From Thermus sediminis (GTDB lineage Bacteria; Deinococcota; Deinococci; Deinococcales; Thermaceae), in NCBI RefSeq assembly GCF_003426945.1, contig NZ_QURO01000004.1, forward strand, positions 1 to 64,000: a stretch of 64,000 nucleotides of DNA, given 5' to 3'. The stretch's first letter is position 1. Each line of letters starts with the position of its first letter. The position numbers and the translations under genes were made by a program. Shown here one piece after another: positions 1 through 14,608 of the stretch. The notes beneath the pieces were generated by a model that saw only the letters and a list, made by a program, of their open reading frames with translations, was not told where the DNA came from and did not search any database.

Positions 1-1344
<1,344 letters not shown>

Positions 1345-1347
1345 GGC

Positions 1348-2758
1348 TTACCTCCCGATGCCAAAGACTTCCCGGGCGTCGGCGATCTCCCCGGCGATGG
1401 CGGCGGCGGCCACCATGAGGGGGCTCATGAGGACGGTGCGCCCCCTGGGGCTTCCCATCCTCCCCTTGTAGTTGCGGTTGGAGCTGCTGGCGCAAAGCTC
1501 GTCCCTTCCAGGCGGTCCGGGTTCATGGCCAGGCACATGGAGCACCCCGGCATCCGCCACTCGAACCCCGCTTCCCGGAAGACCTCGGCGATGCCCTCCT
1601 CCTCCGCCTTCATGGCCACCCACTCCGAGCCCGGCACCACCAGGGCCCTTACCCCCTTCTTCACCCTGTGCCCCTTGAGGTGGCGGGCCACCTCCCGGAG
1701 GTCGGAGAGCCTAGCGTTGGTGCAGCTCCCGATGAAGGCCACCTGGACGGTCACCCCCTGGATGGGCTGGCCCGGCTTAAAGCCCATGTAGGCCAAGGCC
1801 TCCTCGGCCACGGCCCTCTCCTCCTCGGGAAGCTCCTCTAAAAGGGGAATCCGCCCATCTATGGGGATGGCCTGGCCCGGGGTGATCCCCCAGGTGACCG
1901 TGGGGGCGATCCCCTCGGCCCGGAAGGTGACCACGTCGTCGTAGGGGGCGTCGGGGTCGGAGCGGAAGGAAAGCCACCTCCTCTTGGCCTCCTCCCACTC
2001 GGGCCCTTTGGGGCTATAGGGCGGCCCTCGAGGTAGGCGAAGGTGGTCTCGTCGGGGTTCACGTAGCCGATCCTGGCCCCGCCCTCAATGGACATGTTGC
2101 AAAGGGTCATGCGGCTTTCCATGTCCATGGCCTCTACCGTGCTCCCCCCGTACTCGTAGGCGTAGCCCAGGCCCCCCTTCACCCCCAGGTGGCGGATGAT
2201 GTGGAGGATCACGTCCTTGGCGTAGACCCCGGGGCCAAGCCTCCCCTCCACGTTGATGCGCCGCACCTTGAGCTTCTTCGCCGCCAGGGTCTGGGTGGCG
2301 AGGACGTCCCGCACCTGGCTGGTGCCGATGCCGAAGGCCACCGCCCCGAAGGCCCCGTGGGTGGAGGTGTGGGAGTCCCCGCAGGCGATGGTCATCCCGG
2401 GCTGGGTGAGGCCCAGCTGGGGGCCGATGACGTGGACGATGCCCTGGTCCCCGCTCCCCAGGTCAAAGAAGGGGATGCCGTGCTCCCTCGTGTTCTCCCT
2501 GAGGGCCTCCAGCATGGCCTGGGCCAGGGGGTCCTGGAAGGGTTCGGTGCGGTCGTGGGTGGGGACGATGTGGTCCACGGTGGCGAAGGTGCGGTGGGGA
2601 AAGCGCACCTTGAGGCCCAGGTCCTTGAGCATCCCGAAGGCCTGGGGGCTCGTCACCTCGTGGAGGAGGTGGAGGTCTATGAAGAGCTGGCTCTGCCCAT
2701 TCCTGAGCTTCCTCACCTCGTGGGCTTCCCAAACCTTGTCGTAAAGCGTCCTTCCCAT
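1348..2758 (-). pseudogene. leuC: 3-isopropylmalate dehydratase large subunit, two frameshifts
   Basis: Large subunit of isopropylmalate isomerase (2-isopropylmalate to 3-isopropylmalate), an aconitase-fold protein that holds the [4Fe-4S] cluster. The reading frame starts at the ATG at 2758 ([15 protein letters not shown]) after a good GGAGG ribosome site. It shows [12 protein letters not shown], the substrate loop [14 protein letters not shown] and the cluster cysteines in [15 protein letters not shown] and [13 protein letters not shown], and ends ...REVFGIGR. Two single-base losses break it: one in the CCCC run near 2018, after RPIAPKG, and one near 1508, before [14 protein letters not shown]. 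Repairing both gives about 470 residues, the family size. First gene of leuC-leuD-leuB. Confidence 0.9.
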
Positions 2759-2773
2759 GCTTCCTCCCTAGGC

Positions 2774-2803
2774 AAAACCCCCCGGGTTCCTAGGCCCGGG
2801 GGG
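2774..2803 (-). terminator. Attenuator (intrinsic terminator) in the leu leader
   Basis: On the minus strand a perfect 9-bp stem CCCCCCGGG/CCCGGGGGG with an 8-nt loop is followed by TTTT, 15 nt before the leuC start. It lies between the leader peptide and leuC, exactly where an attenuator should be. A competing hairpin, GCCGGG-TGGG-CCCGGC, covers the end of the leader peptide (2825-2840), so the leader offers alternative folds. Confidence 0.85.
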
Positions 2804-2820
2804 AGTGGGAAAAGGCTTCC

Positions 2821-2868
2821 CTAAGCCGGGCCCACCCGGCCTAGGGGTAGCAGGATGCCCCGCCGCAT
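2821..2868 (-). CDS. leu operon leader peptide (attenuation)
   Basis: A 15-codon reading frame, MRRGILLPLGRVGPA, starts at the ATG at 2868 and stops with TAG. It has one Ile codon and three Leu codons within five codons (ATC CTG CTA CCC CTA), two of them CTA, a codon that appears uncommon in the neighbouring genes. It lies just after the leu promoter and just before a terminator hairpin. This is the classic arrangement in which ribosome stalling at Leu codons during leucine shortage prevents termination. The start lies very close to the predicted transcription start. Confidence 0.75.
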   Translation of the reverse strand: MRRGILLPLGRVGPA

Positions 2869-2876
2869 CGCCTTAT

Positions 2877-2905
2877 AGGCTAAACCCTTGGGCCCCCCTG
2901 GTCAA
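2877..2905 (-). promoter_or_regulatory. leu operon promoter
   Basis: On the minus strand TTGACC (2905-2900), a 17-bp spacer and TAGCCT (2882-2877). The -35 box shares the palindrome GTCAAGCTTGAC (2901-2912) with the divergent tRNA-Leu promoter. Confidence 0.75.
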
Positions 2906-2907
2906 GC

Positions 2908-2936
2908 TTGACGAGGGGAGCCCTCCTGCCTAAAAT
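2908..2936 (+). promoter_or_regulatory. tRNA-Leu promoter
   Basis: TTGACG (2908-2913), a 17-bp spacer and TAAAAT (2931-2936), 13 nt before the mature tRNA end. It is back-to-back with the leu operon promoter, with only GC between the two -35 boxes. Confidence 0.8.
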
Positions 2937-2949
2937 AGCCCTTGCGTCT

Positions 2950-3036
2950 GCCGGGGTGGCGGAATTGGTAGACGCGCACGATTCAGGGTCGTGTGTCCTT
3001 TGGGACGTGCGGGTTCAAGTCCCGCCCCCGGCACCA
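2950..3036 (+). tRNA. tRNA-Leu (anticodon CAG)
   Basis: An 87-nt class II tRNA. The acceptor stem GCCGGGG pairs with CCCCGGC, a D-loop with AATTGGTAGAC follows, the anticodon loop ATTCAGGG reads CAG, there is a long variable arm (TGTCCTTTGGGACG) and a T arm with GGGTTCAAGTCCC. CCA is encoded at 3034-3036. It reads CTG, by far the commonest leucine codon here. It stands divergent from the leucine biosynthesis operon. Confidence 0.97.
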
Positions 3037-3061
3037 AAGGCGGAAGCACTCTTCAGGACGG

Positions 3062-3091
3062 CCCCGGTGCAAACCGGGGTCTTCCCCTTTT
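3062..3091 (+). terminator. Terminator of tRNA-Leu
   Basis: CCCCGGT-GCAA-ACCGGGG makes a 7-bp stem with a GNRA tetraloop (3062-3079), followed by the pyrimidine-rich TCTTCCCCTTTT. It lies 26 nt after the tRNA. Confidence 0.7.
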
Positions 3092-3199
3092 CCCCCGGGG
3101 AAGGGGTCGGGAAAGGGCAGGGTCGCGTGTGCACCCCCATCCCGATCTTGTTCTTTTAGAGGGTAGAATGAAAGGGTTTCGGAGTGGGCGGGGGCTTGG

Positions 3200-3228
3200 T
3201 TGACGGCGAGGCCTCTTCCCCGTAGCCT
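3200..3228 (+). promoter_or_regulatory. trpS promoter
   Basis: TTGACG (3200-3205), a 17-bp spacer and TAGCCT (3223-3228), ending 8 nt before the trpS ATG, so the transcript should be nearly leaderless. Confidence 0.7.
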
Positions 3229-3236
3229 GGAAGGTA

Positions 3237-4250
3237 ATGAAGCGCGTCCTCTCCGGCATCCAGCCCTCGGGGGAGATCCACATCGGCAACTACCTGGGGG
3301 CCATCCAGCAGTGGGTGGAGATCGGGGAGAAGCTGGGCCGGGACGCCCTTTTCTGCATCGTGGACTACCACGCCCTCACCAACCCCCTGGCCTACGACCC
3401 CGCCACGCTGGCCCAGCGCACCTTTGAGGCAGCCCTGGTCAACATGGCGGCGGGGCTGGACCCGGAAAAGGTCACCCTCTTCGCCCAGTCCCACGTGCCC
3501 GAACACACCGAGCTCGCCTGGGTCTTCACCACCCTCACCCCCTTGGGGGACCTGACCCGCATGACCCAGTTCAAGGACAAGGCCGCCAAGCAGGAGACGG
3601 TCTGGAGCGGACTCCTCATGTACCCCGTCCTTCAGGCGGCGGACATCCTCATCTACAAGGCGGACACTGTCCCCGTGGGGGAGGACCAGGTGCAGCACAT
3701 TGAGCTCACGCGGGAGATCGCCCGCCGCTTCAACCATCTCTTTGGGGAGACCTTCCCCGAGCCCGAGGCCCTCCTGAACCCCAAGGCCCCCCGGGTGCCG
3801 GGGATTGACGGCAAGGCCAAGATGAGCAAGTCCCTGGGGAACACCATCGGCCTCCTGGAGGCGGAGGAGAGCATTTGGGAGAAGATCCGCCACCTCCCCG
3901 ATGACCCCCAGCGGATCCGCCTCCAAGACCCTGGGGACCCAGGGCGGACCGTGGTCTTCACCTACCTCTCCTACTTCGCCCCGGAGGAGGTGGTGGAGGC
4001 CCTGAAGGAGGAGTACCGCCGGGCGGGGGTGGGGACCCTCGCCGTGAAGCGCATCCTCTTTGAGCACCTCATGCGCGCCCTAAGGCCCATCCGGGAGCGG
4101 GCTGAGGCCCTGAAGCGGGACCCAGACTACGTGATGGACGCCCTCCTCGAGGGGGCCAAACGGGCCCGCGCCATCGCCCAGGTCACCATGGAGGAGGTGC
4201 GGGATCGGGTGGGCCTCCTTCTGCCCAAGAGGCGGCCGGTGCTCCGTTGA
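3237..4250 (+). CDS. trpS: Tryptophanyl-tRNA synthetase
   Basis: Class I synthetase that charges tRNA-Trp, cytosolic, 337 residues, the usual bacterial length. The Rossmann signature HIGN lies at residues 15-18 after SGIQPSGE, and the second ATP motif KMSKS lies near residue 198 (GKAKMSKSLGN). MTQFKDKA and GEDQVQHIELTREIARRFN are typical of TrpRS. The ATG at 3237 is chosen because it is the first in-frame start after the promoter -10 box, 8 nt away. The next reading frame begins with a TTG that overlaps the trpS stop (TTGA), which suggests a former two-gene unit. Confidence 0.96.
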   Translation: MKRVLSGIQPSGEIHIGNYLGAIQQWVEIGEKLGRDALFCIVDYHALTNPLAYDPATLAQRTFEAALVNMAAGLDPEKVTLFAQSHVPEHTELAWVFTTLTPLGDLTRMTQFKDKAAKQETVWSGLLMYPVLQAADILIYKADTVPVGEDQVQHIELTREIARRFNHLFGETFPEPEALLNPKAPRVPGIDGKAKMSKSLGNTIGLLEAEESIWEKIRHLPDDPQRIRLQDPGDPGRTVVFTYLSYFAPEEVVEALKEEYRRAGVGTLAVKRILFEHLMRALRPIRERAEALKRDPDYVMDALLEGAKRARAIAQVTMEEVRDRVGLLLPKRRPVLR

Positions 4251-4555
4251 TCCCAACCGCCTTCCCCGGCTTCTTTGGCCCCCTCGAGGCCTTAAGGTGG
4301 AGACGGGGCTCTCCCAGGGGGGTCCCCATCCTCGAGGGCAATGAGGGGACCCTGGCCCAGCTTCCCCCGTTCCTAAGGGAAAGGAGCGAGACTTCTCCCC
4401 ATGGCTCCCCTTCCTCCTCGGCCTCGGGCTATCTCCCAAGGCGCTCTTTCAGGTGGCAAGGCCCACCCTGGGGCCTAGTCCGCCCCCGCCAGGAACCCCC
4501 CTTCGCCCCTCTGGAGCCCGAGGGGTCCACAGGGGAGCCGGAGATGGCCGCCTAG
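4247..4555 (+). pseudogene. Degraded gene after trpS, possibly scpA
   Basis: A TTG at 4247 overlaps the trpS stop and opens a frame with MIPTAFPGFFGPLEAL, then PILEGNEGTLAQLPPFL. This resembles the start of ScpA, the kleisin of the bacterial SMC condensin, whose N-terminus carries an F-x-GPL-x-LL motif followed by an (I/V)P(I/L) strand. After about 50 residues the frame loses the likeness, and a second frame continues with LGLSPKALFQVARP, as if one base were missing near 4385. The rest is low-complexity Pro/Arg coding. I see a remnant rather than a working gene. The ScpA assignment rests on one short motif and is tentative. No scpB follows; the sequence passes straight into the scarred region. 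Confidence 0.4.
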
Positions 4556-4820
4556 CGCAGAAAGGTGGTGAGGGCCAACGCGGCCGCCAGGGCGGTGAAG
4601 TAGAGCATGGCCCTGTTGAGGGCGTTTCCGATTTCTGCTTTGACCTCTTGGCGGATGCCGTTGAACTTTTCCTCCGTGTCGCGGCGGAAGAGCGCCATCT
4701 CCTGGCGGAGCCCCTGGAGTTCGGCCCTCACCTCCTGGCGCAGGAGGTCCATGCGGTGTTCCAGGGCGGAGACCGTTCCACGATGCCTTCCAGTTTGTAA
4801 AGGCGTTCCTCCGTGTTCAT
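4552..4820 (-). pseudogene. Coiled-coil, tail-anchored small membrane protein, frameshifted
   Basis: From ATG 4820 the frame reads MNTEERLYKLEGIVE and is then broken near 4775; the second frame continues SALEHRMDLLRQEVRAELQGLRQEMALF, then EEKFNGIRQEVKAEIGN, and ends with a single hydrophobic helix (AMLYFTALAAALALTTFL). So the intact form would be a short cytoplasmic coiled coil with a C-terminal membrane anchor. A relic of the same gene at 6308-6452 keeps the 9 residues missing here (GVMAVLPKR), which shows this copy lost about 25 bases. The function is unknown to me. Confidence 0.6.
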
Positions 4821-4919
4821 CCGCCCCTAGGATAAGGATAGCAGAGGTGAAGCGCTGCCCCCCAGTTTGGACCACCCCAGGCGAGGGGCAGTGGGGTGTA
4901 GCCTGGAGGGGTAGCAGCC

Positions 4920-5205
4920 ATGGGCAAGGGGTCGGCGAAGGAGAAGGCGGGGATCGTCCTTAGGGTTCTTGCCGGCGAGAAGACGGTGGCTGGGGCCTGC
5001 CGCGGTTACGGCGCCTCCTCGGGAACTAACAGGAACCCACCCCCGCTGCGGCTACCCCCGGCGGGGGACAAACGGGGGCGCTCCTCGCTCAAGCGCTGGG
5101 TGGTGGACCTGAGCCCCGTGCGGCTTGGGAAGGGGGTGGCTCACCTGGCGGTGGGGATGGACCTCTGCACCACAGCAGGGCGTTGCGATGCTGGTCTGCC
5201 GCTGG
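4920..5205 (+). pseudogene. Transposase remnant
   Basis: ATG 4920 starts MGKGSAKEKAGIVLRVLAGEKTVAGACRGYG, the helix-turn-helix start of IS3/IS481-like transposases (K-x-x-IVLR-LL-GE-S-x-x-E-x-CR-x-YG). After about 60 unrelated residues the same frame gives RWVVDLSPVRLGKGVAHLAVGMDLCT, like the first catalytic strand of an rve/DDE integrase core (the D of VVDLSP and the hydrophobic VGMDLC strand). The rest of the DDE domain and both element ends are missing. An internally deleted relic, not mobile. Confidence 0.55.
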
Positions 5206-5211
5206 GCGGCT

Positions 5212-5316
5212 TAAGTACCCCACCGCGGCTTTCGCCGCGGCGGGGGCCCCAAAGAGGCTTCCATGGCCCTGGCTTGGGCCTCTCATGTTGCGAAACCAAA
5301 GCGCGGGCACTTAGCC
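5212..5316 (+). repeat. Dispersed repeat 1, copy A
   Basis: TAAGTACCCC, then CCGCGGC-TTTC-GCCGCGG (a perfect 7-bp stem), then GGGGGCCCCAAA, and at the far end CATGTTGCGAAACCAA...CGGGCACTTAGCC. Copy B (14207-14313) matches both ends and has nearly the same length. The far end contains TTGCGA (5288-5293), 18 bp and TAGCCG (5312-5317), a promoter-like pair pointing plus. Copies C and D are partial. Confidence 0.7.
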
Positions 5317-6087
5317 GGCGCGCATGCCGCCGTCGATCAAGTGGATCTGGCCGGTGATATAGCTGCTTTCGTCGCTAGCCAGGAACAACGTCAGGTACGC
5401 AACTTCTTCGGGCGTGGCGTAGCGCTTCAGAGGGATGCGCTGCTCGAACTGGCTTTTGACCCCAGCGCTTGCCGCTTCATCGCCGCCTGCTGCCATCGTC
5501 TCGATCGAGCGCATCATGCGGGTCTCCACCGGGCCGGGGTTGACGCAGTTGACGCGGATCTTTTGGTCTGCGGTTTCCAGCGCTGCCGTTCGCATTAAGC
5601 CGATGACGGCATGTTTGCTGGCGACGTAAGCCGAGAAGCCTGGCGAGCCGATCACGCCGGCGACCGACGAAATGATCACGATGCTGCCACCGCCCCGCTG
5701 GGCGATGGCGGGGATGGCGTACTTCAACCCCAGCCACACGCCCTTGACATTGACGGCCAGCACCTTTTCAAAGGTATCCATCGGGTAGCTGACGATCGGC
5801 TGTACGGCACCCTCGATGCCGGCATTGGCGACGAAAATATCCAACCCGCCAAAGGCGTCGACGCAGGCTTTGACCGACCCCTCGTTGTCTTCCGCCTTTG
5901 TGACATCGGCCACCGCATAGGCTGAGCGATCGGGGCCGATCGCCTCAACAGCCTTCTTCAGCGCATCCTCATCAATATCGGTCATGAAGACGCGCGCGCC
6001 TTCCTGGGCGAACAGTTTCGAGATCGCCAGACCGATTCCGCCCGAAGCACCGGTGATAAGTGCGACTTTACCCTGTAAACGTGCCAT
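5311..6087 (-). CDS. Short-chain dehydrogenase/reductase, foreign-looking
   Basis: A classical SDR of 258 residues, probably NAD(P)-dependent oxidation or reduction of an alcohol or keto substrate; the substrate cannot be read from sequence. The cofactor loop TGASGGIG (about 12-19), the NAG motif (VANAGIEG), the catalytic Ser of IISSVAG, and YVASK (Tyr/Lys) are all present, and it ends in the family's FLASDESSYITGQIHLIDGG. An Asp after the second strand (MTDIDE) favours NAD(H). It differs from its neighbours: lower G+C, A/T third bases, far fewer CTC/GAG runs, and a strong AAGGAGG site 7 nt before ATG 6087 instead of a leaderless start. Its TAA stop lies inside the end of dispersed repeat copy A. 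These are signs of transfer, probably from a proteobacterial or similar donor. Confidence 0.9.
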   Translation of the reverse strand: MARLQGKVALITGASGGIGLAISKLFAQEGARVFMTDIDEDALKKAVEAIGPDRSAYAVADVTKAEDNEGSVKACVDAFGGLDIFVANAGIEGAVQPIVSYPMDTFEKVLAVNVKGVWLGLKYAIPAIAQRGGGSIVIISSVAGVIGSPGFSAYVASKHAVIGLMRTAALETADQKIRVNCVNPGPVETRMMRSIETMAAGGDEAASAGVKSQFEQRIPLKRYATPEEVAYLTLFLASDESSYITGQIHLIDGGMRAG

Positions 6088-6307
6088 TGTTTTCCTCCTT
6101 GCTAGCTGTCGCCCTTAGGGAAAGCGGCGCATATCAGCGTTGACGGCATCAGCCGTGAAGTCATCCCATGGACGACGCTTTCATTGTACGCACCTGCTGC
6201 CATCATCGGCAATACCCTTGAACGGCTTGGTCGTGTCAAGAGTTTTGTGTACCCTCCACGGCTATGCCCCCCTCGCCTTCCCATCCGACCGCAAGGATAG
6301 CCCTATT
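6088..6307. other. Gene-free foreign segment with a possible IS256-type end
   Basis: There is no supported gene. The base composition is lower in G+C than the flanks up to about 6260. At 6231-6258 the sequence GTGTCAAGAGTTTTGTGTAC resembles the ends of IS256-family elements when read on the minus strand (GTACACAAAACTCTTGACAC). No partner end and no transposase were found. After about 6260 the composition returns to that of Thermus. Confidence 0.4.
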
Positions 6308-6452
6308 TGGCGGGGCCCGTGGAGCTCGGCCTTCACCCCTTGGCGCAGGGGGTCCACGCGGTGCTCCAGGGCAGAAACCCGCTTGGGCAGCACCGCCATG
6401 ACCCCTTCCACGGTGCCCTCAAGCTTGTGGAGGCGTTCCTACGTGGTCATCT
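6308..6452 (-). pseudogene. 5' relic of the coiled-coil membrane gene at 4552-4820
   Basis: From ATG 6452 it reads MTT, an in-frame TAG, then ERLHKLEGTVEGVMAVLPKRVSALEHRVDPLRQGVKAELHG, and stops matching near 6308. The other copy reads MNTEERLYKLEGIVE...SALEHRMDLLRQEVRAELQG. Upstream DNA is also alike (AGGATA, then GCAGAG). It is broken by a stop codon and lacks the membrane anchor, so it is dead. Confidence 0.6.
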
Positions 6453-6483
6453 AAGCCCAGGATATGCAGAGTAGACTGGAACC

Positions 6484-7061
6484 ATGGGCGAAACGGCGAG
6501 GCCCCTGGAGCTCCTGGACGCCGAGGCTTACCTGGCCAGGGAAGAGCGGTCCCCCGTGCGCCACGAGCTGGTGGAGGGGGTACCCTACGCCATGGCGGGG
6601 CGAGCGAGGCCCACAACTTGGTTGGGGGCAACCTCTTCTTCCACCTCCGTCCCCATGCCCTGGCCAAAGGGTGCAGGCTTTTTGTTTCCGACATGAAGCT
6701 CAAGGTGTCTCCCCGTACCTTCTACTACCCCGATCTCATGGCCGTGTGCGCCGAGGACCCCCATCCCTACTACAAGGAAAGGCCCTGTCTGCTGGTGGAG
6801 GTGCTTTCCGAGAGCACCGAGGCCATTGACCGCCGGGAGAAGCTTTGGCGCTACCGGGAGATCCCGAGCCTCGAGGCCTACCTCCTGGTGGACGCCAGGG
6901 CCCGCCGGGTGGAGGGGTACTTCCGCCAGGGGGAGGGCTGGCTCTACCGCCTTTGGGAGGAGGAGGGGGAGGTGGAGGTGCCCTGCCTGGGAGCCCGCCT
7001 TTCCCTTTTCGCCCTTTACGAAGGGGTGGAGCTGGAGGGGGCTGGAAGCTCCCCCTTCTAG
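6484..7061 (+). pseudogene. Uma2-family (DUF820) nuclease-like protein, one frameshift
   Basis: A Uma2/DUF820 protein, a PD-(D/E)XK-fold family abundant in Thermus and cyanobacteria, often proposed to act as an endonuclease; the role is not established. The first frame reads MGETARPLELLDAEAYL...HELVEGVPYAMAG and breaks at the GGGG near 6600. With one more G it continues ASEAHNLVGGNLFFHLRP, then PDLMAVCAEDPHPYYKERPCLLVEVLSEST (Asp, and the E-V-L catalytic strand) and REKLWRYREIPSLEAYLLVDARARRVEGY. Full length would be 192 residues. The -10 TAGACT lies 6 nt before ATG 6484, so the mRNA is leaderless. It converges on a second Uma2 gene. Confidence 0.8.
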
Positions 7062-7089
7062 CCCGCCCGTGCCCTGGACTCGGATGGCT

Positions 7090-7632
7090 TTAGAGGTCTG
7101 CGTACACCTCTTGGAGGTCCAAAAACCCCTCTAAGCAGGGGAGGGGCAGGCGGCCCTCCTCCACCTCCTGGTAGACCCAGCCCCCTTCCTCCCGGTAGTA
7201 GCCGAAGGCCTGGGGAGCGCGGGAGTCCACCAGCAAGTAGGCCTGAAGGGTGGGCAAGCCCAGGTACTTGCGGAGCTTTTCCCTCCGGTCTGTGCCCTCC
7301 GTGGACTCCGAGAGGACCTCTATCACCAAGCAGGGCCTTTCCTTGTAGTACTCCCCCGGGTCCTCTTCGCAGACCACCATGAGGTCGGGGTAGTAGACCG
7401 TGGCCGCGTCCACCTTGAGCCGCATGTCGCTTGCGTAGAGGCGGCACCCCTTTTTCCGAACCAGGGGGCCTAGGGCCAGGACCAGGTTTACCACCACCCG
7501 GTTGTGCCGGTCGCTGGCCCCGGCCATGGCGTAGGGGAAACCTTCCACCAGCTCGTGCTTCTGCGTGGCCTCCCGCTCCAGGGCCAGGTACTCCTCCAGG
7601 GTGAGGGGCCGCACCGCCTTGGCCACGCCCAT
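7090..7632 (-). CDS. Uma2-family (DUF820) nuclease-like protein
   Basis: 180 residues, intact paralogue of the neighbour at 6484. It shows LTLEEYLALE, HELVEGFPYAMAG, YYPDLMVVCEEDP, YYKERPCLVIEVLSEST, DRREKLRKYLGLPTLQAYLLVDS, that is, the Asp and Glu-x-(Val/Leu) positions of the PD-(D/E)XK core plus the family's Lys region. The start at 7632 (MGVAKAVRPLTL) is preferred to the longer frame because TACACT lies 6 nt before it, as in other leaderless genes here, and the upstream residues are Gly/Pro-rich noise. Ends 28 bp from the other Uma2 gene. The biological role is unknown. Confidence 0.85.
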   Translation of the reverse strand: MGVAKAVRPLTLEEYLALEREATQKHELVEGFPYAMAGASDRHNRVVVNLVLALGPLVRKKGCRLYASDMRLKVDAATVYYPDLMVVCEEDPGEYYKERPCLVIEVLSESTEGTDRREKLRKYLGLPTLQAYLLVDSRAPQAFGYYREEGGWVYQEVEEGRLPLPCLEGFLDLQEVYADL

Positions 7633-7758
7633 GCCTAGAGTGTAGCCCAGGCCGAAGGGGGATGGGCGCCCGAAGCCCCCGGGTCCTTGCCCTAGGCGGT
7701 TTCTAGGGCACCCCTGCAAGCGTCCCGCATGTGCAGGAGCCGGACGCGATGGGAAAGG

Positions 7759-8070
7759 CTACGCCGCCTCATGGATAGGGCGGGCCTCCTTCAGGACCTC
7801 CTCCCGAAGGTAAGGGCTCAGGCTTCCCGGGGTGTGGAGGTCCACCCTGCGCCCGAAGAGGCGGGTCAGCTCCTCCTGAAGCCTCACAAAGCCCAGGCCT
7901 GGGGTGCGCCCGGGGAAGAACTCCACCACGAGGTCCACGTCGCTTTCCTTGTCGGCCTCGCCCCGGGCGAAGGAGCCGAAGAGGAGGAGGCGCCGGACCC
8001 CGTACCGACGGCAGACCTCCGCCAGGGCTTGGGAAGGGAAGGGTACCTGCGGGGTCATAGCCTGCTTCAT
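7759..8070 (-). CDS. MNT-type minimal nucleotidyltransferase
   Basis: 103 residues from ATG 8070 (MKQAMTPQ). The polymerase-beta fold signature is complete: LLLFGSFARGEADKESDVDLVVEF, i.e. GS-x(10)-D-x-D, plus a third Asp in RVDLHTP. Proteins like this are usually the antitoxin of MNT-HEPN pairs and AMPylate a tyrosine on the toxin. Here no HEPN gene follows: the next gene downstream is the Uma2 gene. ATG 8058 is an alternative start. An orphan antitoxin or a stand-alone nucleotidyltransferase. Confidence 0.85.
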   Translation of the reverse strand: MKQAMTPQVPFPSQALAEVCRRYGVRRLLLFGSFARGEADKESDVDLVVEFFPGRTPGLGFVRLQEELTRLFGRRVDLHTPGSLSPYLREEVLKEARPIHEAA

Positions 8071-8259
8071 TTTAGCGAAAGGGAGCGTCAGGGGTGCGGC
8101 CCCTCTTTCTCCCCAGGGGGGGAGGGGGCTGGAGGCACCGGTCGCCCGCCCCGGCCCCCGGCCCATGGGTTGTTGGCGGGGGCTTGGGTCCTGGTTGATG
8201 AACTACCGGGTTGCCCGCAAGGGCAATGATGTCCCGGGCGGGCCTGTAGAGTCTTGGCG

Positions 8260-8604
8260 CTAGGGCAGGGTGAAGCTCCCGCCCGAGCGGCTTTGCACCT
8301 CCACCCGGAAGAACTGCCCCGTCCAGGTGACCTGGCAGGAGGCCACCCCAGGCCCGGGGTCCGGGACGCTGTAGCTTCCCGCCGCGAAGCCGTCCGTGCA
8401 GTCCCCGCCCACAGGGGAGGCCCCGGGGTCCTCGGCCACATGGGCCCAGGCGGCCTTCAGGACATTGTGGGCGTGGGCCAGGGCCAGTCGGTCCTCGGCG
8501 AGCCTGCGAGCGCTTAAGAGGTTGGCTATCAGAAGCGAAGCGAGGACCCCGATGGCAGCTAAAACCACGACGATTTCTGGAAGGGAAAATCCCTTGTTGA
8601 GCAT
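8260..8604 (-). CDS. Type IV pilin-like protein
   Basis: 114 residues, secreted and processed by prepilin peptidase. A short leader MLNKG, then FSLPEIVVVLAAIGVLASLLIANLLSAR, the N-methylated hydrophobic helix with Pro at position 4 and Glu at position 5 of the mature protein. The C-terminal half has three Cys (DCTDGF, ASCQVTW), enough for one disulfide, and the GFAAGSYSV motif shared with the neighbour PilA4 (GFTAGSFSV), so the two arose by duplication. A hairpin terminator lies between them, so this gene may be expressed less than pilA4. It could be a second pilus subunit; Thermus is known to make a wide and a narrow pilus. Confidence 0.85.
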   Translation of the reverse strand: MLNKGFSLPEIVVVLAAIGVLASLLIANLLSARRLAEDRLALAHAHNVLKAAWAHVAEDPGASPVGGDCTDGFAAGSYSVPDPGPGVASCQVTWTGQFFRVEVQSRSGGSFTLP

Positions 8605-8615
8605 ATGGGCCTCGG

Positions 8616-8646
8616 TGAAAGAAGGGGGCAGGATTACCCTGCCCCC
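8616..8646 (-). terminator. Hairpin after pilA4
   Basis: On the minus strand GGGGGCAGG-GTAAT-CCTGCCCCC, a perfect 9-bp stem with a 5-nt loop, followed by TTCTTTC. It lies 20 nt after the pilA4 stop and before the next pilin start, so it probably limits read-through. Confidence 0.6.
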
Positions 8647-8666
8647 TAGGCGGTTAGTAGCTCAGG

Positions 8667-9020
8667 TTAGGGGAACGTCTTAGAGAAGTTGCCGGGAGCG
8701 GTGACGGTAATCGTGAAGCTATCGGGGCCGGTAGCGTTGTAAGTGCAACCCACACCAGCGGGAGCCTGTCCAACGCTAAAGGAACCGGCCGTGAAGCCAT
8801 CGGCGCAGTTTGTGTCGTTGATGTCCTGGGCTGAATGCTGAGGACTCTCGGCCAGATAGGCGGCGACCACCTTGTAGACGTTCTGCCCATGGGCCACCGC
8901 CGCCTGCTGGGTGGCCGTGCGCCGGGCGTTGAGCAGGTTGGGCACCAGCACCGCCGCCAGGATGCCGATGATGGCGATGACGATCAGGAGCTCAATCAGG
9001 GTAAAGCCTTTAGTCCGCAT
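8667..9020 (-). CDS. pilA4: Major type IV pilin
   Basis: 117 residues. Leader MRTKG, then the canonical FTLIELLIVIAIIGILAAVLVPNLLNAR with Glu5, which forms the pilus core after cleavage and N-methylation. The globular part has two Cys (NCADGF, GCTYN), consistent with the pilin disulfide loop. In Thermus the main pilin PilA4 supports twitching and natural transformation. It has its own TTGACA promoter about 130 nt upstream and a GGAG site (AAGGAGAAGAAAGT-ATG). It is the last but one gene of the pilus cluster, separated from the minor pilins by a terminator. Confidence 0.88.
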   Translation of the reverse strand: MRTKGFTLIELLIVIAIIGILAAVLVPNLLNARRTATQQAAVAHGQNVYKVVAAYLAESPQHSAQDINDTNCADGFTAGSFSVGQAPAGVGCTYNATGPDSFTITVTAPGNFSKTFP

Positions 9021-9152
9021 ACTTTCTTCTCCTTAGGGTTTTCCGCGCCTTCATCCATTCGCGCGGCCATGAGTGCCTGGAGCCGATTTGCCTACCGAAC
9101 CTTAACCTTGCGCCTTACTGCCCTAACCGCTTCCCACCTCCTTTCTAGCTCT

Positions 9153-9181
9153 ATCTTTTGGCCCCTTGGGGCCCTTGTCAA
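9153..9181 (-). promoter_or_regulatory. pilA4 promoter
   Basis: On the minus strand a perfect TTGACA (9181-9176), 17 bp and AAAGAT (9158-9153). The -35 box starts right at the foot of the upstream terminator. A 5' leader of about 125 nt follows, unusual among the mostly leaderless genes here, so it may hold regulatory structure. Confidence 0.65.
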
Positions 9182-9199
9182 CCCCCCTTTTGGGGGGGT
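9181..9199 (-). terminator. Hairpin ending the minor-pilin operon
   Basis: On the minus strand ACCCCCCC-AAAA-GGGGGGT, a stem of at least 6 G:C pairs plus A:T, 43 nt after the last minor pilin gene. The T-tract is short (TTGACA follows), so the strength is uncertain. Confidence 0.5.
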
Positions 9200-9241
9200 C
9201 ATCCTCAGGATGGGGGAGGGGTGTTAAAACCATGTGAAAAG

Positions 9242-9859
9242 CTACGGGACGTTCCGGGGGTAGACCCGGATGGTATAGGCCTCGTTGGGACCGGGGACGC
9301 GCAAGGTGCGCCCCGCTTCCTGGGCTTTGAGCCGGATGTTGAGGGTAATGGAGGTGGGGGAGGCGCCCACCCGGAAAGGGGCCAGGTTGGGGTCGTTGTC
9401 CACCAGGTCCAGCACCACGTAGGGCTGGGCGTTGCTGAAGGTGGCGGTGTTGCACCCTAGGTTGCTGAGGCGGTACTCCCTGAGCATGAGGGTGTGGGTG
9501 TCGGCCCAGGGGTCGGGGGCCTTGTAGTCCTCCCCGACCCCGGACCGCGGTTCTAGGCGGTAGGCCCTTAGGGCGCATTTTCCCGGGTTTACGGGGTCTG
9601 GCACTAGGACGGCTAAGCAGGTGGGGGGAGCGCAGGCTTGCCCGTTTAGGGTGGTGGAGTTGAACACCCGTTGCGCTTCCTGGAGGGTGTCCGCCAGGTA
9701 GCCCGCGGCGTCCTTGAGCTCCTCTAGGAGTTGCGCCTGTTTGCGGGCGAGGCGGTTGGCCCCTAAGCTCCCCTGGGTGAAGGCGAGGAGGGCGGCGGTG
9801 AAGACGGCCAGCACCGCCAAGGCCACCAGGGTCTCCAGCAGGGAGAATCCCTTTCTCAT
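9242..9859 (-). CDS. Minor pilin / pseudopilin, PilW-like
   Basis: 205 residues from ATG 9859, which overlaps the previous stop (ATGA). Leader MRKG, then FSLLETLVALAVLAVFTAALLAFTQGSL with Glu5, then a long amphipathic helix (KQAQLLEELKDAAGYLADTLQEA). Three Cys lie in the globular region (GQACAPPTC, KCALRAY) with one more (LGCNTAT). The size and the longer globular domain fit the PilW / GspJ class, which sits at the pilus tip complex. It resembles PilA3/PilW of the T. thermophilus transformation cluster; the exact match needs a search. Confidence 0.85.
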   Translation of the reverse strand: MRKGFSLLETLVALAVLAVFTAALLAFTQGSLGANRLARKQAQLLEELKDAAGYLADTLQEAQRVFNSTTLNGQACAPPTCLAVLVPDPVNPGKCALRAYRLEPRSGVGEDYKAPDPWADTHTLMLREYRLSNLGCNTATFSNAQPYVVLDLVDNDPNLAPFRVGASPTSITLNIRLKAQEAGRTLRVPGPNEAYTIRVYPRNVP

Positions 9860-10278
9860 AGCGGCCACTCCCGGTAGAAGGTGTAGGTCCTGCCCCCGCC
9901 CTCGAGGGTGAGCCTCACCGCCACCAGGCGGCAGGGACCCGGGGAGCAGGCCACCGTGCAGGTGTACCCCGAGGAGGGGTCCCCGGCGCAAGGGGCGAAG
10001 CTAAGGGGCTGGGTCGGGTCCAGGCGCCCCGCCGCCGCCAGGGCCACGCTGAAGCCAGCGGTCTGGCCCAAGGGGGGAAGGCGGAGCGCGTTATTGTAGG
10101 TGCTCTCCCTCCTTGCCCGCTCCAGGTAGTCCTTGGCCACCACCACCGCCCGGGCTTCCAGGCTAGCGCCCCGGTTCACCTGGAAGACCCCGAGGAGCCC
10201 CCCGAGAATGGCGGCGCTGAGGAGGCCGAAGACGGCGAGGGCCACCAGAAGCTCCAGCAGGGAAAAGCCCTTTTTCAC
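9856..10278 (-). CDS. Minor pilin, PilV/GspI-like
   Basis: 140 residues. Leader MKKG, then FSLLELLVALAVFGLLSAAILGGLLGVFQ with Glu5. Short region ARAVVVAKDYLERARREST, then two closely spaced Cys pairs (APCAGDP, YTCTVACSPGPCRLVAV). The size and the FSLLE(V/L)LVAL start match PilV/GspI-type minor pilins. Overlaps both neighbours by 4 nt, so it is translated within one operon. Probably the counterpart of Thermus PilA2. Confidence 0.83.
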   Translation of the reverse strand: MKKGFSLLELLVALAVFGLLSAAILGGLLGVFQVNRGASLEARAVVVAKDYLERARRESTYNNALRLPPLGQTAGFSVALAAAGRLDPTQPLSFAPCAGDPSSGYTCTVACSPGPCRLVAVRLTLEGGGRTYTFYREWPL

Positions 10279-10718
10279 CGCACCACCACCCTTCCCGTCA
10301 CACCGATCACGTGCACGTTCCTCATGAGCCCTGGGTAGCGGGCGTGCTTAAGGGTGAACTTCTTCAGGGGTGCGTCCGTGGTGCCGTACGGGGGGTGGAA
10401 GGCCACGTCCAGGGGTGGGAAGTTCCTGTGGTTGGTCCCGTCCACGATCGCTTGGGATAGCCTCTGGGTGGGGGCGTTGAGGTTGGCGCACTCGCCCCCC
10501 ACGGCAAAGCCCTCCCGCCAAACCCGGACGCACCTTGGGCTATTGGTTCGCTTGGCCTCGGTCCGGGCGTACTGGAAGGCCTGGGCCAGGGAGCGGGCGG
10601 CCTCGTCCAGCTCCGCCTGGGCCCGAAAGCGGAGGAGGTTGGGGGTTCCGAGGCCGGCGAGGAGGCCCAGGACGGCGAGCACGATCAGGAGCTCCAACAG
10701 GGAAAGGCCCCGCCTCAT
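10275..10718 (-). CDS. Minor pilin, GspH/FimT-like
   Basis: 147 residues. Leader MRRG, then LSLLELLIVLAVLGLLAGLGTPNLLRFRA; the GxPNL kink and AARSLAQAFQYARTEAKRTNSPRCVRV are hallmarks of GspH/FimT proteins. Two Cys (PRCVRV, GGECANL). FimT-like minor pilins can bind DNA in other naturally competent bacteria. Its ATG overlaps the stop of the comZ-like gene by 4 nt. Probably the counterpart of Thermus PilA1. Confidence 0.83.
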   Translation of the reverse strand: MRRGLSLLELLIVLAVLGLLAGLGTPNLLRFRAQAELDEAARSLAQAFQYARTEAKRTNSPRCVRVWREGFAVGGECANLNAPTQRLSQAIVDGTNHRNFPPLDVAFHPPYGTTDAPLKKFTLKHARYPGLMRNVHVIGVTGRVVVR

Positions 10719-12175
10719 AGGCGCCTCCAGGTGCCGGGTACGGCCACCACCCGGGTTCCCCCGCTGGCCACCCTAAGCCCTTGGAGCACCTGGGGATCGT
10801 AGACGATCTTGCCGCCCCCTTGGCCCGTGCCGGCGATCTGGGTCCAGCACTCGTTGCCGGTGCAGCTCTGCAAGTCCGCCACGCCCTCCACCACCACGGC
10901 CCCGGTTAGGACCGCGTTGCCCTGCTGGTCGTAATCCCCCGCCACGTAGATGAGCCCCCGGAAGCCCTGGGAGCAGGAGCCGTTCACCGTGAGGTTCCCG
11001 AGGACCACGAGGACGCCCGCCCCGCAGAGCCGGTTGCCCCCGGTGAGCTGGAGGGGCCCCCGGACCACCCTGATCTCCCAGTCCCGCAGGGTTCCGTTGA
11101 AGGAGGAAACAGGGGGGTACAGTTCCAGGAAGGCGGCCTTGGGCATGCCGAAGACGCGTAGGAAGAGCTCGTCGGGATCGTTGGGGACCATGCGGGAGTT
11201 TTCGGCCGCGCCGTGCAGGATCGCCCCCCTTCCGCTTGTGCCCATGGTCAGGGCGCTGGCCGCCCCCAGGACCTGGGGGACCAGGGGCGTGCCCTCGGGG
11301 ATGGCGGTGGGAGGGGGCCCCCTCCACTCCACGGCCACCCGTCCCGTGGCCAGGTCCACCTCGCGGAGGGTGCCCTCGAGGCCGTTCACTCTAATGGTCT
11401 GCCCTGGGATTAGGCCGCGGGCGTCGTTGAGGAACAGGGTGTCCGGGGGGCCATAGGACTTCACGCCAAACTGCACCAGGTGGACCTGGGCCCCCGGAAG
11501 GACGAGGTCCGTGGGGCCTGGGGTGAAGAGGGGGCTGAGGGTGAGGGTGTTCCCATCCTTGCCCTCCACCCGGTAGGTCTTCGGAGCGCCTCCGGTGGGG
11601 ATCTGCACGTAGCTACCGAGGGGGATCAGGGTGGCGTCCTGAACGCCTAGGGTGAAGCTCCCGCTTGGGGGCACGAGGAGGTTCAAGAACAGGCTAGTTG
11701 TGGTGACCTCGAGGAGCCCCGTGGCGCTCCCGAAGTCCTGGCCGATGACCTGGGCGTCCCCTCTGACCTCTATGCGGGGCCTCGAGGTGAGGGCAGCGGG
11801 GATGGCCCCTGTGAACCCGCAACTCACGGAAAAGGTCCGTTCTACTCGGGCCCTCGTCCCCCCAGACTGGGCCACCGCCTGAACCCTGACCGTTCCCCCG
11901 CCTGGGGGTACGGCCGTTTGCCCATCGGGGTACCTGTAGCTGGCCTCCAAGCCAGGGCCTAGGGTGTAATCCGTCGGCAGGTCTCTCCCGCACCGGACCA
12001 GGAGGGGAAGGGCCTCGAGGGCGCTTTCCGCCAGGGTAAAGGCCTGGTACGTGGCCCGCTCGGAGGCCCCGCCCCTTAGGGCGCCCAAGGCCATGTAGCC
12101 GGTGGCCGCAAGAAGGCTCGTGAAGACCACCATCAGGACCACCAGGGTAATAGGGGTTGCAATACCCTTCCTCAT
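10715..12175 (-). CDS. comZ: ComZ-like large minor pilin (transformation)
   Basis: 486 residues. A prepilin-like start MRKG, IATPITLVVLMVVFTSLLAATGYMALGAL, without the usual Glu5, then ATYQAFTLAESALEALPLLVRCG, the PilX-type start of tip minor pilins. The long remainder is rich in beta-turn repeats (Gly-Asn-Leu-Thr-Val-Asn and Val-Val-Val-Glu-Gly patterns) near the C-terminus (GAGVLVVLGNLTVNG, GAVVVEGVADL), suggesting a beta-solenoid. ComZ of T. thermophilus is a DNA-binding tip protein needed for natural transformation. Start 12175 is favoured because prepilin leaders are short; ATG 12184 is also possible. First gene of this operon; in the T. thermophilus cluster as I recall it comZ comes after the small pilins, so the order here may be changed. 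Confidence 0.75.
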   Translation of the reverse strand: MRKGIATPITLVVLMVVFTSLLAATGYMALGALRGGASERATYQAFTLAESALEALPLLVRCGRDLPTDYTLGPGLEASYRYPDGQTAVPPGGGTVRVQAVAQSGGTRARVERTFSVSCGFTGAIPAALTSRPRIEVRGDAQVIGQDFGSATGLLEVTTTSLFLNLLVPPSGSFTLGVQDATLIPLGSYVQIPTGGAPKTYRVEGKDGNTLTLSPLFTPGPTDLVLPGAQVHLVQFGVKSYGPPDTLFLNDARGLIPGQTIRVNGLEGTLREVDLATGRVAVEWRGPPPTAIPEGTPLVPQVLGAASALTMGTSGRGAILHGAAENSRMVPNDPDELFLRVFGMPKAAFLELYPPVSSFNGTLRDWEIRVVRGPLQLTGGNRLCGAGVLVVLGNLTVNGSCSQGFRGLIYVAGDYDQQGNAVLTGAVVVEGVADLQSCTGNECWTQIAGTGQGGGKIVYDPQVLQGLRVASGGTRVVAVPGTWRRL

Positions 12176-12209
12176 ACCCTTCATGATGGGGGCCCAGGCC
12201 CCGGCGTGC

Positions 12210-12264
12210 ATCCCCCAAAAGGGGGATACAACACCACCCCCTGCTGGCCTGGGCCAGCACGGGG
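12210..12264. repeat. Dispersed repeat 2, copy 1, upstream of the comZ-like gene
   Basis: First ATCCCCC-AAAA-GGGGGAT (12210-12227, a perfect 7-bp stem), then ACACCACCCC and TGCTGGCC-TG-GGCCAGCA (12242-12259) with outer CCCC/GGGG. The core CACCCC(A/C)TGCTGGC...GCCAGCA(T/C)GGGG recurs at 13790-13824. It occupies the promoter region of the pilus operon. Confidence 0.6.
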
Positions 12265-12300
12265 GCCCCGGCAGAAGGTGCCCAAGGGTATGATGGGCCT

Positions 12301-13491
12301 ATGCAGGAGGTCTACATCGTTTCCGCGGCCAGGACCCCCATCGGCCGGTTCGGGGGGGTCCTGAAGGACGTGAGCCCCGTGGAGCTTGGGGCCCACGCCA
12401 TGCGGGCGGCCCTGGAGCGGGCCGGGGTGGAGGGGAAGGACCTGGACCTCTACGTCTTCGGCAACGTCCTAAGGGCGGGGCACGGGCAGCTTTTGCCCAG
12501 GCAGGCGGCCCTTAGGGCGGGCATCCCCAAGGAGGTGGACGGGTACGGGGTGGACATGGTCTGCGCCTCGGGGATGATGGCCCTCATCAACGCCGACCAG
12601 TTCATCAGGACGGGGGAGGCCCACCTGGTCCTGGCCGGGGGGATGGAGTCCATGAGCCAGGCGGGCTTCTACCTCTCCCACCGGGCCCGGTGGGGGTACA
12701 AGTTCCTCATGGGGGCCCCGGAGGGGCTACAGGACATCCTCCTCCGGGACGGGCTTTCCGACCCCTTCACGGGGGAGGCCATGGGGGAGCAGGCGGAAAG
12801 GCTGGCCCAGGACTACGGGGTGGGGCGGGAGGAGGTGGACGAGGCCGCCTACCTCTCCCACCGGCGGGCCTGGGAGGCCACGGAGGGGGGCCTCTTCGCC
12901 TTTGAGATCGCTCCCCTCGAGGTCCCGGGGAAGAAGGGCCCGGTGGTGGTGGAGAAGGACGAGGGCATCCGCCCCGAGACCACCCTCGAGTCCCTGGCCG
13001 CCCTGAGGCCCGCCTTCCGGAAGGACGGCATCCTCACCGCGGGCAACGCCAGCCAGATCTCCGACGGGGCGGCGGCCCTTCTCCTGGCCTCGGGGGAGGC
13101 GGTGCGGGCCCACGGGCTTAAGCCCATCGCCAAGGTATTGGGCGGGGCCTGGGCCGCCGGGGAGCCCTGGCGCTTCCCCGAGGCCCCCATCCCCGCGGTG
13201 AGGCGGCTTCTGGAGAGGTTGGGCATGAGGATCTCGGACTTCGGCCTCTTTGAGAACAACGAGGCCTTCGCCCTGAACAACATCCTCTTCAGCCGCCTCC
13301 TCTCCGTCCCCTACGAGCGCCTCAACGTCTTCGGGGGGGCGGTGGCCCTGGGCCACCCCATCGGGGCGAGCGGGGCCAGGATCGTGGTGACCCTCCTGAA
13401 CGCCCTCCGGGTGAGGGGGGAGGAAAGGGGCCTCGCCGCCATCTGCCACGGGACCGGGGGGTCCACGGCGTTGGCGGTGGAGCGGGTGTAG
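12301..13491 (+). CDS. Acetyl-CoA acetyltransferase (thiolase)
   Basis: 396 residues, cytosolic. Catalyses reversible Claisen condensation or thiolytic cleavage of acyl-CoA. The acylated Cys lies in DMVCASGMMAL (about residue 89), the NEAFALN loop and the GHPIGASGARI histidine are intact, and the C-terminal Cys is in AICHGTGGSTAL. The last motif differs from the commoner CxGGGMG, so the substrate may not be simple acetoacetyl-CoA. The -10 TATGAT lies 6 nt before the ATG (leaderless). A DUF433 gene follows after 3 nt. A 3-hydroxyacyl-CoA dehydrogenase elsewhere in the window (49595) could act in the same pathway. Confidence 0.93.
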   Translation: MQEVYIVSAARTPIGRFGGVLKDVSPVELGAHAMRAALERAGVEGKDLDLYVFGNVLRAGHGQLLPRQAALRAGIPKEVDGYGVDMVCASGMMALINADQFIRTGEAHLVLAGGMESMSQAGFYLSHRARWGYKFLMGAPEGLQDILLRDGLSDPFTGEAMGEQAERLAQDYGVGREEVDEAAYLSHRRAWEATEGGLFAFEIAPLEVPGKKGPVVVEKDEGIRPETTLESLAALRPAFRKDGILTAGNASQISDGAAALLLASGEAVRAHGLKPIAKVLGGAWAAGEPWRFPEAPIPAVRRLLERLGMRISDFGLFENNEAFALNNILFSRLLSVPYERLNVFGGAVALGHPIGASGARIVVTLLNALRVRGEERGLAAICHGTGGSTALAVERV

Positions 13492-13494
13492 GGT

Positions 13495-13728
13495 GTGGTG
13501 GACCTCATCGTGGCGGACCCTGAGGTGATGGGAGGGAAGCCTGTAGTGGCGGGGACCCGGATCACCGTGGAGGAGATCCTCCGCCGCCTCGCCGCTGGGG
13601 AGAGCCCAGAGGCCCTCCTGGAAGCCCTCCCCCGGCTGACCCCGGAGGGCCTGCGCACCGCTTTGCTCTACGCGGCCGAGGTCCTCGGGGCAGAGAGGGT
13701 CTACCCCTACCCGGACCAAGCCGCGTGA
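13495..13728 (+). CDS. DUF433 antitoxin-like protein
   Basis: 77 residues, GTG start. It reads DLIVADPEVMGGKPVVAGTRITVEEILRRLAAGESPEALLEALPRLT, the DUF433 signature (D-P-x(2)-x-G-(K/R)-P-x-(I/V)-x-GTR-(I/V)) that forms a winged-helix fold. Such proteins are antitoxins of the VapB45/DUF5615 type. The GTG of the expected toxin overlaps this stop (GTGA), but the toxin is cut off after about 24 codons. So the antitoxin is now alone. Confidence 0.9.
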   Translation: MVDLIVADPEVMGGKPVVAGTRITVEEILRRLAAGESPEALLEALPRLTPEGLRTALLYAAEVLGAERVYPYPDQAA

Positions 13729-13796
13729 AGCGCCTCGCCGGCGAGGGGGTGGATGCTCCCGTGGTCCTTCGGTTACAGGAGGAACGGTTTATACCA
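13725..13796 (+). pseudogene. Truncated DUF5615 (PIN-like) toxin, 5' fragment
   Basis: GTG 13725 overlaps the antitoxin stop. The frame reads VKRLAGEGVDAPVVLRLQEE, the start of DUF5615 toxins (typically M-(K/R)-x-LAD-E-(N/G)-VD-x-P-(I/V)-V-x-RL-R-E). It then runs into the 12-bp palindrome of dispersed repeat 2 and stops. The rest of the nuclease domain is absent. Too short to be a working toxin. Confidence 0.65.
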
Positions 13797-13830
13797 CCCC
13801 ATGCTGGCTTGGGCCAGCATGGGGTATTAC
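13786..13830. repeat. Dispersed repeat 2, copy 2, at the toxin truncation
   Basis: CCCCATGCTGGC-TTGG-GCCAGCATGGGG (13797-13824) is a perfect 12-bp stem with a 4-nt loop, flanked by TTTATACCA and TATTACTT. No T-tract follows, so it is not a standard intrinsic terminator. Compare 12210-12264. It sits exactly where the DUF5615 frame ends. Confidence 0.65.
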
Positions 13831-13834
13831 TTCC

Positions 13835-14143
13835 CTAGAGGACCCCGTCCAGCTCAAAGGCCTCGAGGCGGAACTCCTCCAGGGCCACGCGGAAGGCCCC
13901 ATTTTGCGCCAGGAAGCGGGCCGCTGCCCACAGGGTTTCCTCCACCCACTTTGGGTCGTTCCCCAGGAGGCTCAGGCCCACCACCTCGTACCCCCAGGCG
14001 TCCAGGCCGTGGAGCCTGGCGGCGGACACGGGGAAGCGGGCCTTCACCCTCTCCAGGGCAGGCTTGATGAGGGCCCGCTTCTCCTTGAGGCTCCGGGCCC
14101 CGGTTTCCAGCCTGGCGGTGTAGAGGCCGAGGTACACCTTCAT
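13835..14143 (-). CDS. DUF503 (YlxP-like) protein
   Basis: 102 residues, cytosolic. It has the family pattern: an initial beta strand, then SLKEKRALIKPALERVKARFPVSAARLHGLDAWGYEVVGLSLLGNDPKWVEETL, i.e. S-LK-x-KR-x(n)-L and a later G-(L/V)-(S/A)-x-(L/V)-x-(N/S)-D. In many bacteria ylxP lies near infB/rbfA and helps ribosome assembly; here it stands alone. ATG 14143 has GGAGGG 6 nt upstream. The exact function in Thermus is not known to me. Confidence 0.8.
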   Translation of the reverse strand: MKVYLGLYTARLETGARSLKEKRALIKPALERVKARFPVSAARLHGLDAWGYEVVGLSLLGNDPKWVEETLWAAARFLAQNGAFRVALEEFRLEAFELDGVL

Positions 14144-14206
14144 GGGAGGTCCCTCCTAGTTTGCTTCGGTAGGCGCCCCGCTGACAAGGGCGGAGCGCCT
14201 TTGGGC

Positions 14207-14313
14207 TAAGTACCCCACCGCGGCTTTCGCCGCGGCGGGGGCCCCAAAAAGGCCTTGCCAGAGCTCCCACCTGGACATCCCATGTTGCGAAACCAACGTA
14301 CGGGCCCTTAGCC
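14207..14313 (+). repeat. Dispersed repeat 1, copy B
   Basis: Same two ends as copy A: TAAGTACCCCACCGCGGC-TTTC-GCCGCGGCGGGGGCCCCAAA and CATGTTGCGAAACCAACG...CGGGCCCTTAGCC. The right end provides TTGCGA (14285-14290), 18 bp and TAGCCT (14309-14314), six bases before the ATG of the MNT antitoxin gene. So the repeat seems to supply the promoter of the toxin-antitoxin pair. Confidence 0.75.
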
Positions 14314-14320
14314 TAAGGGT

Positions 14321-14608
14321 ATGGGCCTCGAGGAGGTGCGGGCCATTTTGGAAGCCCACCGGGGGGAGCTTAAGGCTCTTGGCGTTCGGGAGGTCTATGT
14401 GTTTGGCTCCATCGCCCGGGGCGAGGCCAGCCCGGAGAGCGACGTGGACCTCATCGTGGTGCTGGAGCGCCCTCTGGGATTCGCCTTCTTTGAACTGAAG
14501 GAGCGCCTGGAAGCCTGGCTTGGCCGATCTGTGGACCTCACAACCCCTGATGGCCTGCGGGAGGACCTCAGGGAAAGCGCTTTGCGGGGCGCCGTTCGTG
14601 CGGCCTAG
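14321..14608 (+). CDS. MNT antitoxin nucleotidyltransferase (MntA-like)
   Basis: 95 residues. The signature VYVFGSIARGEASPESDVDLIVVL (GS-x(10)-D-x-D) plus SVDLTTP gives the three metal-binding Asp. In characterised MntA-HepT pairs this enzyme adds AMP to a tyrosine of the HEPN toxin and blocks its RNase activity. Its last 11 bases overlap the start of the HEPN gene. The -10 TAGCCT, formed by the end of repeat copy B, lies 6 nt before the ATG, so the mRNA is leaderless. Complete, with no disruption. Confidence 0.93.
   Translation: MGLEEVRAILEAHRGELKALGVREVYVFGSIARGEASPESDVDLIVVLERPLGFAFFELKERLEAWLGRSVDLTTPDGLREDLRESALRGAVRAA

Follow-up and report, generated by a model that had tools for sequence, protein, structure and literature searches.

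Organization of the leu/tRNA-Leu region

The window analysed here, bases 1-64000 of a 2,028,157-bp Thermus sediminis contig (C4), carries the leuCDB operon on the minus strand and, divergently oriented on the plus strand, the gene for tRNA-Leu(CAG), with trpS as the next downstream gene (Table 1). This order of leuC, tRNA-Leu and trpS recurs in a sister genus (L034). Five tRNA-Leu isoacceptors are encoded in the genome, each at a separate locus, including tRNA-Leu(UAG) at C4:419132.

Positions 1-16298 of the window (~16.3 kb) recur in the last 16 kb of the contig (C4:2012000-2028157) with 99.8% identity. The differences between the two copies are nearly all indels, in addition to an unmatched stretch of ~330 bp at about 10961-11291. 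The repeat most likely represents a circular overlap that was left untrimmed and whose end is of low quality, so the leu/tRNA region is probably single-copy in reality. The 3' half of leuC is frameshifted in the window; this and the frameshifts in leuB and leuD probably reflect sequencing errors at the contig end.

Table 1. Features of the leu/tRNA-Leu region, in window coordinates
Feature	Position	Strand	Remarks
leuC, first gene of leuCDB	1350-2758	-	N-terminal part matches PF00330 (Aconitase family), E 2.9e-89
Attenuator terminator stem-loop, CCCCCCGGGCCTAGGAACCCGGGGGG, followed by TTTT	2803-2778	-	Lies between leader ORF and leuC
leu leader peptide ORF, MRRGILLPLGRVGPA and stop, 15 codons	2868-2821	-	Leu codons CTG, CTA, CTA
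leu promoter -10, TAGCCT (TAnnnT type)	2882-2877	-	Conserved spacing; TAGGCT in most relatives
leu promoter -35, TTGACC	2905-2900	-	All 26 Thermus leu promoters, whether shared or split, have CTTGACC, as does G013
12-bp perfect palindrome, GTCAAGCTTGAC	2901-2912	both	Two CTTGAC -35 elements end to end
tRNA-Leu promoter -35, TTGACG	2908-2913	+	Each of 26 Thermus tRNA promoters has CTTGACG
tRNA-Leu promoter -10, TAAAAT	2931-2936	+	17-bp spacer; TACAAT or TAGAAT in relatives
tRNA-Leu, anticodon CAG	2950-3036	+	ARAGORN; Rfam RF00005
trpS, next downstream gene	3237-4250	+	PF00579, E 5.7e-69

Two divergent promoters arranged back to back

Direct reading of the sequence confirmed both promoters and the perfect 12-bp palindrome reported in the initial annotation, with 2 bp between the minus-strand and plus-strand -35 boxes. 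A search of the genome found no other copy of GTCAAGCTTGAC except the assembly duplicate, and the few further copies elsewhere in the genus are scattered. Among 15 genomic sites of the form GTCAA-N(0-12)-TTGAC, only the leu/tRNA locus (counted twice because of the assembly duplicate) and C4:349873 are flanked on both sides by a TAnnnT hexamer at 16-18 bp. The latter site (C4:349873-349888, L125), GTCAAAGGGGATTGAC, forms another back-to-back pair, flanked at 17-18 bp by TATACT and TACACT; it could be linked to no clear pair of genes.

The tRNA-Leu promoter was the sole sigma-70-like site found in a scan of positions 2000-3600, compared to a mean of 0.1 in shuffled sequences, and its -10 box ends 13 bp before the tRNA. 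The leu promoter, a weak match to the consensus, was missed by the same scan. Its boxes are separated by 17 bp here and by 17 or 18 bp across Thermus, and in 26/26 Thermus leu leaders, as well as in G013, CTTGACC is followed at this spacing by TAnnCT placed exactly 8 nt before the leader ATG. A downstream TATAAG was considered as the leu -10 box and dropped, since relatives lack it and a TAGGCT-type hexamer at 17-18 bp is conserved. The predicted start sites of the two promoters lie about 75 bp apart.

The 8-nt gap from the TAnnnT -10 box to the ATG suggests that the leu leader transcript is probably leaderless. A -10 box of this type (TAGGCT type) sits directly upstream of the leader start codon in all 26 of the 26 genomes. 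Deinococcus-Thermus bacteria are known for TAnnnT -10 elements and for about 40% leaderless genes (PMC3160421).

Sequences next to the core elements showed patterns of their own. The leu promoters of Calidithermus and Meiothermus (L046 and L050) contain an operator-like palindrome, TTTGGTATACCAAA, between the -35 and -10 boxes, which is missing from Thermus leu promoters. On the tRNA side, conservation of the pre-tRNA leader CTTGCGTCT (window 2941-2952) is strong across Thermus and almost as strong in sister genera (L034, L035). This leader occurs once in its own genome, at tRNA-Leu(CAG), and tRNA-Leu(GAG) (L004) is preceded by a similar cttgcgcct.

A conserved leucine attenuator upstream of leuC

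The initial annotation also placed an attenuator downstream of the leu promoter, and this element proved real and conserved. A leader peptide of the type MRRGILLxLGRAGPx, followed by a stop codon and with two invariant CTA codons, is encoded in 26/26 Thermus genomes. The CTA codons occupy positions 7 and 9 in all leaders but one; the exception is G017, where a leader shorter by one codon places them at positions 6 and 8. CTA makes up 3.7% of the leucine codons in window ORFs, compared to 57/77 in the leader set, a count that takes in two outgroup genera. The terminator stem is conserved in relatives as well, and one pair of the leader hairpin appears as G-C, A-U and G-U types (columns 41-56).

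Folding of the leader RNA ended at the terminator 5' arm, with G006 left out as mis-set by the search pattern, predicted two alternative states. With a ribosome at codon 7, the terminator 5' arm is captured in all 25 informative genomes, with 7-11 nt paired; once the ribosome has reached the stop codon, only 2-6 nt are paired and most of the arm is free. In the equilibrium fold of the full-length leader, the terminator persists in almost all ribosome states and the antiterminator does not appear in most genomes, and on this modelling the switch must therefore act co-transcriptionally. Altogether, the region combines a leader ORF with control codons, a terminator before leuC and a predicted, mutually exclusive antiterminator, as in ribosome-mediated attenuators of the leu type. 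An Rfam search at E up to 1 returned the tRNA and two sub-threshold matches, neither of them a leu leader or a T-box.

These codons bear on two further proposals, that uncharged tRNA from the adjacent gene signals to the attenuator and that this tRNA reads the main leucine codon. The adjacent tRNA has the anticodon CAG and should read CUG, not the CTA of the leader, and the two invariant CTA codons are read by tRNA-Leu(UAG), which is encoded elsewhere; the case for feedback by the neighbouring tRNA is weaker accordingly. The second proposal does not agree with codon usage, as CTC accounts for 44% and CTG for 34% of leucine codons in a rough set of window ORFs.

Abutted and separated promoters across Thermus

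Comparison of 27 Thermus-genus genomes, one per species, revealed an identical abutted palindrome in 12, located in the leuC-tRNA interval, which measures 192-196 bp in these genomes. An identical 12-mer at this locus in 12/27 genomes, unique in the present genome, points to more than chance recurrence. The expected retention of the palindrome among Thermus was thus borne out in these 12 genomes and not in the other 15, which lack the abutment at the locus; for two of the latter, contig ends leave the linkage open.

The 15 genomes differ in how the promoters are arranged. In G024, two CTTGAC blocks lie about 15 bp apart, and the spacer may be a deletion scar, as it resembles the end of a gene inserted in species with much wider gaps. 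G005 and G022 have a gap wider by 42-55 bp, and in eight genomes the distance from leuC to the tRNA is 440-884 bp. One such wide-gap locus, L025, was read fully; its two promoters are separated by a coiled-coil gene at 920-1474 that has a CCDC90-like match (PF07798). Further separation is seen in G006, where leuC and the tRNA are about 107 kb apart, and in G013, where they are on different contigs, with the leu promoter retained away from the tRNA; in G011 and G025 the locus is cut by contig ends or unlinked. The sister-genus genome G028 has the same gene order, with leuC and the tRNA divergent and 416 bp apart, and the palindrome is missing.

The coiled-coil gene of L025 is repetitive, and a window ORF at 4552-4875 (minus strand, after trpS) has a similar C-terminal part; a Pfam search with this ORF gave no match.

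Where the promoters are separated, each keeps its own half of the palindrome. CTTGACG is invariant in the separated tRNA promoters (14 genomes) and CTTGACC in the separated leu promoters (14 genomes), and the adjoining palindrome half is lost in each. The leu -10 box and spacing are the same in shared and separated genomes, and the separated promoters examined retain their own -35 box, spacing and -10 class; nothing in them points to retuning. Since each separated promoter keeps its own box and loses its palindromic partner, the conserved units are the two -35 elements, and the palindrome is their abutment rather than a palindromic operator. By the same comparison, the overlap is unnecessary for either gene. 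The initial proposal that coupling of the two promoters is itself a function finds no support here, as 15/27 genomes lack the abutment and the separated promoters are unchanged in -35 box, spacing and -10 class.

In a leuC tree with 5/25 inner branches well supported, the abutted state is found on the two deepest Thermus branches, which suggests that the abutment goes back to the ancestor of the genus and was broken up on several occasions.

Similarity to known systems

The Thermus leader resembles the E. coli leuL-leuABCD attenuator in having a short leader peptide with the rare CUA codon, a leader hairpin and a terminator before the first structural gene. However, compared to the four consecutive CUA codons of leuL (PMC8384417), the Thermus leader contains only two or three Leu codons, is probably a leaderless ORF, is followed by leuC as the first gene and has no Rfam leu-leader match. 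A leader transcript from the start codon would also be shared with the leaderless leader peptides of amino-acid operons in Corynebacterium; at C. diphtheriae ilvB, the leader-peptide transcript reportedly starts at the leader start codon (PMC5784534). In Thermus, by contrast, such a start is predicted from the 8-nt gap, in a different phylum and for a different gene.

The promoter pair recalls the bidirectional promoters described by Warman, Grainger and colleagues, which likewise combine near-symmetric DNA, divergent transcription and possible polymerase exclusion. Those promoters share a -10 element, and in most of them 10-23 bp separate the start sites (PMC12825309), whereas in Thermus the -35 boxes abut, the two -10 boxes are separate (Table 1) and the predicted starts are about 75 bp apart. 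The locus therefore falls outside that class.

The leucine leader region of the Thermus leu genes was reportedly described in the 1980s, with attenuation. Our literature search for a Thermus leu leader or a promoter pair joining a tRNA gene to a biosynthetic operon returned nothing direct, and the abutment with tRNA-Leu is undescribed in the sources searched.

Discussion

The arrangement at this locus is real, well conserved and built from known parts, namely divergent back-to-back promoters and a leucine attenuator. We consider it probable that two independent promoters have been compacted next to a conserved, probably leaderless, ribosome-mediated leu attenuator. Two other readings were weighed against this one.

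Physical exclusion of two polymerases at the abutted promoters is plausible. RNA polymerase footprints cover about 75 bp each, and two of them here would overlap by some 38 bp, which makes joint occupancy unlikely. A regulatory role for the resulting competition is possible but unlikely, because close relatives lack the abutment and neither promoter shows retuning. Such a role would have the polymerase at the tRNA-Leu promoter block the leu promoter, with growth-linked or stringent control of the tRNA inversely setting leu expression. We regard this as unlikely, although the abutment is conserved in 12 genomes, including those on the two deepest branches of the leuC tree, the footprints would overlap, and competition of this kind is seen at E. 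coli bidirectional promoters under strong activation (PMC12825309). Against it, other Thermus species have the two promoters apart, in several different arrangements, with neither changed, and the invariant codons of the leader are not those read by the adjacent tRNA. Moreover, the bidirectional class of the E. coli study leaves out divergent promoters without a shared -10, and even its shared -10 promoters show little polymerase competition at basal activity, with repression only when one direction is strongly activated (PMC12825309).

Competition could nevertheless matter in the 12 abutted species, since tRNA promoters are often strong and competition appears at strong promoters (PMC12825309). 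A more specific version, in which stringent or growth-rate control of a strong tRNA-Leu promoter reaches the leu operon of the abutted species by polymerase exclusion, atop attenuation, seems to us unlikely. If true, it would provide inverse control of leucine and leucine-tRNA synthesis without any regulator protein.

An operator function of the palindrome, with a dimeric regulator acting on both genes, is very improbable: a perfect 12-bp symmetry conserved in 12 genomes would suit it, but this genome has a single such site, further copies in the genus are few and scattered, the flanks are asymmetric and each fixed (TTGACC versus TTGACG), and one half persists without the other at 14/14 separated tRNA and 14/14 separated leu promoters, on which grounds we rejected it.

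Under the compaction model that we favour, two housekeeping promoters would be packed to the closest back-to-back distance, and their abutting CTTGAC -35 elements would read as a palindrome. The minus-strand promoter would produce the leu leader transcript, with a putative start at or beside the leader ATG, and leucine supply would be sensed by ribosome-mediated attenuation. A ribosome stalled on the CTA codons would allow the GGGCCCGG segment to capture the terminator 5' arm, turning leuCDB on; a ribosome reaching the stop codon would leave the terminator free, turning leuCDB off. Meanwhile, tRNA-Leu(CAG) would be made independently from the plus-strand promoter. Joint occupancy by two polymerases is probably impossible, and this exclusion is more probably a tolerated consequence of the compaction, presumably with a small effect, than a regulatory device. 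Leucine control thus most likely resides in the ordinary attenuator.

Overall, the analysis documents a CTA-reading, probably leaderless leu attenuator across the Thermus genus. In addition, related Thermus species that differ in whether these two promoters abut or lie apart offer a natural comparison: if competition mattered, abutted and separated species would show it, and the role of polymerase exclusion is testable in existing strains.
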